Below the pieces are notes generated by a model that worked only from the letters and a program-made list of their open reading frames with translations, was not told the origin of the DNA and did not search any database. A stretch of DNA of 64,000 nt from an uncultured bacterium (GTDB lineage Bacteria > Planctomycetota > UBA1135 > GCA-002686595). Positions 60,465 through 64,000 of this stretch are shown here, one piece after another. How positions within the stretch are numbered: the stretch's first letter is position 1; each line of letters starts with the position of its first letter. Both the position numbers and the translations under genes were made by a program. The stretch covers positions 1 through 64,000 of the forward strand of contig CALBMX010000108.1 in assembly GCA_937896235.1 (NCBI GenBank), read 5' to 3'.

Positions 60465-61670
60465 CTATTCCGTGGCCAAAAGTGGGGCGGATTCGGGAGT
60501 GCCTTCCTCGGCAAAAACGCGCTTCTGGTTACTAGCTGACCCTCCAAACGAATCGGAATCGCGGAACACCCTAGCGACCCTCTTGCCGATGGAGCAGGCG
60601 ATTTCGTAGGGGATGGTCTCGGCGTGCGAGGCAACGTCGCGCAAAAGAATCGTCTCGTCGCCGTCGTTTCCGATGATCGTAGCCACATCGTCCACGCCGA
60701 CTCCCTTGATGTCCGTCACGTCGATGGTGGTGTAATCCATCGAAACTCTCCCGACAATAGGGGCCCGCTGGCCGTGGACGAGCACTTCCCCGCGGTTGGA
60801 GAGCCTCCACGGGACCCCATCGTTGTACCCGACCGGTAGGGTTGCGATTCTGCGCTTGCCGTCGGCAGTCCACGTTCCGTCGTATCCGACGGTGGATCCG
60901 GAGGGGAGGTCCTTTAGGAAAATGATGCGCGTGCGAAGCGCCATGACAGGAGTCAAATCCGAACCCCAAGTCGCATCTCTCGGCACAACGCCATAAGCGC
61001 TAATCCCGACCCGCACAGCGTCGTAAAGAGGTGAAGTACCGCTGAATAAACCAGCCGAGTTTGACATGTGCACCCAACCGGAAACCAGATCTTCGGCGCG
61101 CGCATTGGCGAGTACCTCTTCGAATTTGGAGGTTTGCGAGGCGATTCCGGCGACAGAGTCCCCTTTTGGTGAGGAGATGTGGGTCATGATACCGGCCAGC
61201 TCCAAGTGGCTTGCGGCGTGAATCTCACGCAAGAGCTCGGTGGCGCGCTCCGGCAAAACCCCCAGTCGACCCATTCCGGTGTCCACATTCAGGTGAACTC
61301 GCGCAATGCGACCTTGTCGGCGCGCGGCTGCTTGCAAGGTGCGACACCGATTCATCGAGTGTAAACCGATATGAATATCGTGGTGTAAACACGCGACGAC
61401 CTCTTCGTCGACGATGGTCCCCAGTACCAAAATTGGCGCGCAGATGCCCCCATGGCGTAATTCGAGCGCTTCCGTAGAGGTGCCCACCCCAAAGGCGGTC
61501 ACCCCGGCACGTGTGGCATGGTGAGCAACGGCGACGGCACCGTGGCCATAGGCGTCCGCCTTGACCACCAGCATCACGTGAACCTTGTCACCAATGGCGT
61601 TGCGGATAACTTTGAGATTTTGAGTGAGGGCGTCGACATTGATGTCGGCCCATGCGCGGTATGCATCCAT
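60465..61670 (-). CDS. alr: Alanine racemase
   Basis: RAWADINVDALTQNLKVIRNAIGDKVHVMLVVKADAYGHGAVAVA; HMSNSAGLF; GRVSMDYTTIDVTDI. Confidence 0.95.
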   Translation of the reverse strand: MDAYRAWADINVDALTQNLKVIRNAIGDKVHVMLVVKADAYGHGAVAVAHHATRAGVTAFGVGTSTEALELRHGGICAPILVLGTIVDEEVVACLHHDIHIGLHSMNRCRTLQAAARRQGRIARVHLNVDTGMGRLGVLPERATELLREIHAASHLELAGIMTHISSPKGDSVAGIASQTSKFEEVLANARAEDLVSGWVHMSNSAGLFSGTSPLYDAVRVGISAYGVVPRDATWGSDLTPVMALRTRIIFLKDLPSGSTVGYDGTWTADGKRRIATLPVGYNDGVPWRLSNRGEVLVHGQRAPIVGRVSMDYTTIDVTDIKGVGVDDVATIIGNDGDETILLRDVASHAETIPYEIACSIGKRVARVFRDSDSFGGSASNQKRVFAEEGTPESAPLLATE

Positions 61671-61968
61671 GCCATCAAGATACTAAGCGCGGGGCGGCTG
61701 ACCAAGTACGCTCTGGACAACACGGAAAAGAGTCGGGACCGCTCTCCCAGGAACGGCTCGAATAGCAGGAAAAACCCTAGAATTCGCGGGTTTTCCTCTT
61801 TGATAGTTGGCCCCGGAGTTGCATTCTTCTCTTTGTCGGCGCAGCGCTTTCCTGTGTGGCGCCTCGACAATTTTCTGGACGCTGTGTTTGAAGGTCGAGC
61901 TTTTATCTAAAGAGCTTCTTCGAGCCAGACCCCTCCCAAACCCAACATCGAGCCCACGGAATAATCCA

Positions 61969-62274
61969 ATGGCAAAAACGACCAAGAAGGCGGCTGCTAA
62001 GAAGGCGCCGGCTAAGAAGGCAAAAGCCAAAGCCGCTAAGAAGCCAGCATCCAAGGCAGGCAAGAAGCCAGCCGCGAAAGCAGCAAAGAAAGGTGGCAGT
62101 AAGAAGCCCCTCGAGCTGATCATCAGCAAGAGCCGCACCAAGAACGCAGCCGCGATTAACGTCTCCGGCGAATTCTACGGCGCACTTGACGCAGCTGTTC
62201 GCGAGATCATCGCCGGCGCAGAAGCTCGTGCCATGTCGAACGGTCGCAAGACCCTTCGTCCTCACGACCTGTAA
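61969..62274 (+). CDS. Putative bacterial histone-fold protein with Lys/Ala-rich N-terminal tail (101 aa; ORF extends upstream to 61807)
   Basis: MAKTTKKAAAKKAPAKKAKAKAAKKPASKAGKKPAAKAAKKGGSKK tail; INVSGEFYGALDAAVREIIAGAEARAMSNGRKTLRPHDL resembles histone-fold alpha2 and the GRKT...D(I/L) motif. Confidence 0.75.
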   Translation: MAKTTKKAAAKKAPAKKAKAKAAKKPASKAGKKPAAKAAKKGGSKKPLELIISKSRTKNAAAINVSGEFYGALDAAVREIIAGAEARAMSNGRKTLRPHDL

Positions 62275-62298: not shown

Positions 62299-62343
62299 AG
62301 TGGCCTCTCGTTTGTTATCACCGATATCAAACGAGGGGCCACT
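62299..62343 (+). terminator. Hairpin terminator downstream of the histone-like gene
   Basis: agtggcctctcgtttg...caaacgaggggccact inverted repeat followed by ccccttt. Confidence 0.75.
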
Positions 62344-62375
62344 CCCCTTTAATCCACTTGGTAGAATCCCCGCCA

Positions 62376-64000
62376 TGAGCAACGAAGCGAAAGAGGAGAT
62401 CCTTGGATTTCTCCGCCAAAACGAGATTGGCCGCCGCGCGAGCGTGAATACCCCCTTTGGAAAGCGCCTGATTACCTATGCGGACTTGACGGCTTCGGGG
62501 CGCTATCTGCACTTCGTCGAGGCTTGGTTCCGCAATGTGCGACCCTTCTACGCGAACACTCACACGGCTGTCTCGTCCACCGGTCGGATCCTGACGGAGC
62601 TTCGCGAGAAGTCCCGCGAGGTTGTTCGCTGCAGTGTCGGAGCCGACGGGGATTACGTCACCGTGTTCTGTGGTGCAGGGGCAACCGCCGCCATCAATAA
62701 GATCGTTGGCATCCTAGGTCTCGCCATTCCGGAGCCACTCCAGCGGCGTTACAACCTGGCCCAGTACATCCCGAAAAACGAGCGACCGATCGTGTTTGTC
62801 GGTCCCTACGAGCACCACTCGAATTACCTGCCTTGGCTCGAGTCGATCGCCGACGTGGTCGAAATCCCACCGCGCGAGTGTGGTGCGGTCGACCTAGACG
62901 TACTCGCCAGTAAATTGGAAGAGTACAAGGATCGCCCGCTGAAGTTGGGCTCGTTCTCCGCCGCTTCCAACGTGACGGGAATCCTCGCGGATGTTCGAGG
63001 CATCTGCCGCACGCTACACAACGGTGGGGCAAAGGCGATATTCGATTACGCCGCGGCTGGCCCCTACGTCCCCATTAAAATGGTGGTGAGCGATCCAGCG
63101 GAGTGCATCGATGCTGTTGTTCTCTCCACACACAAGTTTTTAGGAGGTCCTGGAGGCTCAGGCGTCTTGGTCGCCCACAAGGACTTCTTTGTTTCGCGAA
63201 CCCCGGCGTTGCCCGGTGGCGGAACGGTGGACTATGTCGGTGCGGTCTCCTACGAGTCTGTCGACTACGTCACCCACCTGGACGAGAGGGAAGAGGGTGG
63301 CACCCCTGCAATCATGGGGGACCTGCGCGCAGGCGCTGCCTTCCTAGTAAAGGATATGGTTGGTGCGCAAACGATCCTCGACCACGAGGTCGTCCTGGCT
63401 GCTGCTGCTGTAAAGCGCCTCGATAGCCACCCGAACATTCGAGTGCTCGGACCGAAAGATGCTCCGCGCCTTGCGATCATCTCGATCATCTTTGAAGGGT
63501 TGCACCACGACTATGCGTCGGGACTACTCGATCACCTCTTTGGTGTGCAGAGCAGGTCGGGATGCGCGTGTGCGGGCCCCTACGGGCACACATTACTCGA
63601 TATTGACGCCGAGACCTCCGAAGCTTACCGCGGTGTGGTCGGACGCGGTTTGACCGGAATGAAGCCGGGCTGGGTCCGCTTGTCTCTACCTTATTACGCC
63701 TCAGAAGAGGACCTTGAGTTCGTGCTCTCCGCAGTGGAGTTTGTAGCGACTCACGGCAAAGAATTTGTGCCGGCCTATCGCTTCGACTGGAGCAATGGCG
63801 TTTGGACACACATGCGCCTCGATATGGACACCGCGGCTCCGTTTGAGCTTAGCGTCAAGTCTTTGACTGAAACGGCCGCTTGCTTTGCGGCAGGCGACCA
63901 CGAGGCGCCCCTCAATGATGATCAAATCGCTGTGGAGCGTGCGCGCTACTTCCGAGAAGCGGAAGCGCATCTAGCGGAAATGCGAACCTTAGCTGCCGCT
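62376..64000 (+). CDS. Aminotransferase class V / cysteine-desulfurase-like PLP enzyme (truncated by window end; absent from the ORF track)
   Basis: Open frame from ATG at 62376 (MSNEAKEEILGFLRQNEIGRRASVNTPFGKRLITYAD...); VVLSTHKFLGGPGGSGVLVAHKD PLP-Lys motif; VQSRSGCACAGPYGH Cys loop. Confidence 0.85.

Follow-up and report, generated by a model that had tools for sequence, protein, structure and literature searches.

The window analysed here (the whole 64,000-nucleotide stretch of planctomycete DNA) carries, near its right-hand end, a short gene encoding a tailed histone, with an alanine racemase gene on one side and an aminotransferase-family gene on the other. The following features are discussed below:

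60465-61670, minus strand: alanine racemase, upstream and divergent (TIGR00492, E=9e-98)
61969-62274, plus strand: gene for a putative tailed histone of the face-to-face (FtF) type, 101 aa, with an ATG start
61969-62109, plus strand: N-terminal tail, residues 1-47, rich in K, A and P, net charge +19, predicted by AlphaFold to be unstructured
62110-62271, plus strand: predicted histone fold, residues 48-101, with alpha1 at 54-60, alpha2 at 67-90 and a truncated alpha3 at 98-100 (AlphaFold, profile search, Foldseek)
62227-62271, plus strand: putative FtF signature R87-xxx-N91-x-R93-x-T95-xxxx-D100 (HLp R49, N53, R55, D62), from conservation and alignment
62300-62343, plus strand: strong stem-loop after the stop codon, a probable transcription terminator (MFE -37 kcal/mol, z -5.5)
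62375-64000, plus strand: SufS-like cysteine desulfurase / class V aminotransferase family gene, downstream and running past the end of the window (match below the curated cut-off)

The histone frame opens with the ATG at 61969 and closes with the stop codon at 62272-62274; the encoded 101 aa protein is MAKTTKKAAAKKAPAKKAKAKAAKKPASKAGKKPAAKAAKKGGSKKP followed by LELIISKSRTKNAAAINVSGEFYGALDAAVREIIAGAEARAMSNGRKTLRPHDL, and its C-terminal end is GRKTLRPHDL. The frame stays open in the 5' direction as far as a TTG at 61807, but an ATG lies just ahead of an M(A/G/V)-(K/R)-rich run in nearly all close relatives, so that comparison with them makes the ATG at 61969, rather than the upstream TTG, the likely true start. 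The ORF at 61969-62274 is a real gene: relative to its nearest relative, L005, the core differs at 3, 2 and 15 first, second and third codon positions; of its 54 codons, 12 have changed synonymously and 5 nonsynonymously, and such mostly third-position, synonymous change is expected for a gene under purifying selection. The original prediction had placed an ORF with a tail and a histone-like core at just this location, and all three of these elements are confirmed.

Of six relatives compared, five (L005, L006, L009, L011 and L014) have the alanine racemase gene aligned in the corresponding place. The product of the downstream gene scores well below the curated cut-offs of the cysteine desulfurase models. 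The stem-loop between this gene and the histone gene is a near-perfect inverted repeat with arms of about 16 bp; stable stem-loops are also found 3' of the gene in most relatives checked, though their sequences differ. Such a hairpin would fit a transcript of the histone gene alone with a firm end. No sigma-70 promoter was found by scanning.

The core comprises 54 residues (48-101) with a net charge of +2, and profile searches and structure prediction agree in identifying it as a histone fold. In the AlphaFold2 monomer prediction, which was run on the family alignment, the core has a pLDDT of about 90-96 and contains helices at 54-60 and 67-90 and a three-residue alpha3 at 98-100, in keeping with the very short alpha3 that had been proposed originally; the segment LELIISKSRTKNAAA, then left out of the fold, contains alpha1 (residues 54-60). 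Against PDB sequences, the core alone matches HTkC (9f2c) at E=1.6e-4, followed by Bd0055/HBb at about 0.8. A profile built from 35 relatives matches HTkC (9f2c) at 5.4e-12 and HLp (9qt0) at 5.1e-8, with the DNA-binding protein HmvA at 0.003 and HBb at 0.004 (HmvA and HBb/Bd0055 together span 0.003-0.007). Foldseek against the PDB also puts HTkC first, at 1.4 A over 57 columns with a TM to target of 0.81, followed by HBb and HLp (HLp TM 0.80-0.81), all with probability 1.00, and ranks canonical histones below these three; its E-values reach no better than 5e-3, which is modest, the query being a core of 54 residues with a disordered tail attached. The bacterial histone fold first suggested from the sequence is thus borne out by the profile and PDB matches, AlphaFold and Foldseek, histone-fold matches having been found and no other fold predicted.

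Schwab et al., 2024 (PMC11390915) defined the alpha3 histones as having a shortened alpha2 and 3-4 residues in alpha3, and among them distinguished the FtF histones, which form a toroidal tetramer held by profile residues R48 and N52 and carry an RxTxxxxD motif, from bacterial dimer histones without R48 and N52. In HLp, the tetramer is made by R49, N53 and R55, and R55-D62 forms the RD clamp (PMC12701072). The AlphaFold helices of the window protein show the 3-4 residue alpha3 and shortened alpha2, and HTkC and HLp are among its top fold matches; R87 and N91 stand at the end of alpha2 where the tetramer residues are expected; and the RxTxxxxD motif, or RD clamp, is present as R93 K T95 L R P H D100. 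All five of R87, N91, R93, T95 and D100 are invariant in the 35 relatives, and the profile lies nearer to FtF members than to other histones (5e-12 and 5e-8 versus 0.003-0.007). The full-length alpha3 (about 10 residues) of nucleosomal, HMf/H3-H4-like histones is absent, as the protein ends at the DL with an alpha3 of about 3 residues. A face-to-face tetramer would be expected from these residues, and the protein is very probably an alpha3-truncated, nucleoid-associated histone of the FtF kind with basic tails, which would form a tetramer and wrap DNA as HLp does. It thereby belongs to a published family, that of the FtF alpha3 histones, in which N-terminal tails are already known.

Among solved structures the closest by both sequence and fold (1.4 A) is HTkC of Thermococcus kodakarensis (9F2C, named as HTkC in PMC11390915), which differs in being archaeal, in having a PDB chain of 59 residues and hence no long basic tail, and in carrying E in the profile alignment where HLp and the window protein carry N (N91); since HTkC is itself FtF, the N is not strictly required. 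HLp of Leptospira perolatii (PDB 9QT0-9QT2) shares with the window protein its bacterial origin, truncated alpha2 and alpha3, the R-N-R tetramer residues and the RD clamp. An N-terminal tail is a constant feature of FtF histones in Leptospirales (PMC11390915); that of the window protein consists of 47 residues of K/A/P repeats. In addition, the window's genome has two HU-family genes, whereas HU is encoded by neither L. perolatii nor L. interrogans (PMC12701072). Eukaryotic core histones and the tailed nucleosomal histones of Asgard archaea likewise combine a histone fold with a basic N-terminal tail, but they have a long alpha3 and a different dimer-dimer interface, and no sequence relation was found between their tails and that of the window protein.

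The best-surviving alternative is that the protein is a "bacterial dimer" alpha3 histone like HBb/Bd0055 of Bdellovibrio (8CMP, 8FVX), which would stay dimeric and bend or coat DNA rather than wrap it. HBb shares the truncated histone fold, with the same short alpha2 and alpha3, and the RKT...D motif; Foldseek places the HBb-DNA structure (9ezz) between HTkC and HLp, and bacterial dimers have also been reported in Planctomycetota (PMC11390915). However, HBb, which is reported to be strictly dimeric and is without a long basic tail, lacks the tetramer R and N, having S and D at those positions, while both residues are present and invariant here, and the two FtF structures, at 5e-12 and 5e-8, match the profile far better than HBb does (E 0.004). 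This makes a strictly dimeric protein improbable.

The reading as an FtF histone suggests how the protein may act. The 54-residue C-terminal part would form a histone-fold homodimer, and two such dimers would be closed into a torus-shaped tetramer by R87, N91 and R93, which lie where alpha2 ends and in loop 2 and are conserved with HLp. Around the basic rim of this tetramer about 60 bp of DNA would wrap, as reported for HLp. For HLp the tetramer and the wrapping of about 60 bp are supported by structures, simulation and nuclease protection, and its expression in E. coli leads to DNA compaction and nucleoid reorganisation (PMC12701072). Four 47-residue lysine-rich tails would then touch the wrapped DNA or DNA nearby through electrostatic contacts that do not depend on sequence, which would raise DNA affinity and compaction. 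By this analogy, the window histone probably wraps and compacts the chromosome, presumably working alongside the two HU-family proteins of the same genome, whose genes (L079 and L080) lie on contigs C22 and C16; given these genes it is probably not the sole nucleoid protein, and may be a minor nucleoid component. One of the two HU-family genes encodes an extended C-terminus that is not lysine-rich. No second histone was found in the genome in searches with the core, the full protein and PF00808.

The 47-residue tail contains 19 K, 16 A, 4 P and 3 G with some S and T and no acidic residue, for a net charge of +19, and AlphaFold2 gives it a pLDDT of about 57-64 without secondary structure, which agrees with the disordered basic tail envisaged in the original prediction. 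Every tailed relative aligned has a basic tail (33-59% K+R), with lengths in bacterial relatives from 2 to 49 residues: 16-48 in the window protein's own family (38-59% K+R), 43-49 in a sister family, 12-14 in another, 9-18 in Myxococcota and allied genomes, and only 2 in Krumholzibacteriota and Eisenbacteria, where the core is kept. No invariant tail position or fixed tail motif was found among the 35 relatives aligned. Matches to the tail elsewhere in the genome (L002-L004) look like effects of composition: the HU gene beside one of these (L079), read in its own frame, lacks a K-rich tail.

The combination of histone and basic tail had been thought unusual, but basic tails on bacterial FtF alpha3 histones have already been published (PMC11390915), and the tail is a long example of this known feature. 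Nor is its description as "eukaryote-like" supported, the protein being closest to FtF histones; because its length ranges from 2 to 49 residues without a fixed motif among bacterial relatives, the tail looks like lineage-specific low-complexity sequence and is not evidence of a eukaryotic link. A more far-reaching suggestion is that the lysine-rich tails of about 25-49 residues on FtF histones in the host's planctomycete order may represent an independently evolved tailed chromatin coexisting with HU. The tails would have arisen or grown longer inside the family, separately from those of Asgard and eukaryotic histones, and may favour contacts between tetramers or the formation of condensates, and perhaps carry modifications; this is offered as a tentative idea, with the odds against it.

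Regulation of the protein through a tail that is reversibly acetylated or methylated, in the eukaryotic manner, would add to the FtF reading rather than replace it, and is very unlikely: there are 19 lysines in the tail and two histone-deacetylase-superfamily genes in the genome, but the same deacetylase family occurs in 9 of 14 control genomes, Bacillus subtilis among them, so that its presence here says nothing specific on tail modification, tail positions vary between relatives, and no SET domain was detected in the genome assembly (88.5% complete). Least likely of all, and already disfavoured, is a linker-histone-like protein of the H1/HC1/HC2/AlgP type, whose function would rest with the lysine-rich part, the C-terminal part being incidental. 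In its favour are the Pfam HC2 (E=0.023; 15.3 of 40 bits) and NCBIfam Burkholderia H1-like (NF038053, E=0.003; 17.8 of 80 bits) matches, which start in the K/A-rich stretch, though all fall short of their curated cut-offs. Against it, the conserved part is the core (91% in the nearest relative and 61% or more in all bacterial relatives identified), which Krumholzibacteriota and Eisenbacteria retain with a 2-residue tail.

The gene is present in 47 of the 61 genomes searched (the window's own and 60 relatives), in single copy in all carriers except one, which has two. Duplication occurs in some relatives: genome G009 has two histone matches, and the isolate KW1-S15_115 has two close, short-tailed copies, L036 and L040 (JAPUJU010000009.1 and JAPUJU010000058.1). 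In a wider sample, 127 of 297 Planctomycetota genomes have a profile match, the weaker of which may include bacterial dimers. Most of the relatives with names belong to Planctomycetota, the phylum to which the host is assigned on the strength of its nearest relatives, and the complete genomes of Pla86 and Pla163 are among them; others come from Myxococcota/Deltaproteobacteria, Krumholzibacteriota, Eisenbacteria and Latescibacterota. Two archaeal genomes (Thermoplasmata/Methanomassiliicoccales) encode homologues, L047 and L048, that are tail-less, 43% identical to the window core and share its RKTLRPHD(L/I) ending; as such they may stand at the archaeal end of a gene transfer, or reflect descent from a common ancestor.

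Scanned singly against Pfam and NCBIfam, the protein drew only sub-threshold matches that follow its lysine composition, and PF00808 has no match anywhere in the genome. When all 35 members were scanned, DUF1931, DUF6465 and core-histone models gave weak matches to 1-2 members each, and were rejected. Such histones are missed by the Pfam histone models, and so are probably under-annotated. Standard domain libraries overlook the bacterial histone encoded at this locus, which is genuine, though its family and tail type were already published. Within one planctomycete lineage, FtF histones are widespread, being carried by 47 of the 61 genomes searched. The occurrence of a single core with tails of 2 to 49 residues offers a natural series in which the function of basic histone tails can be studied in non-eukaryotes.
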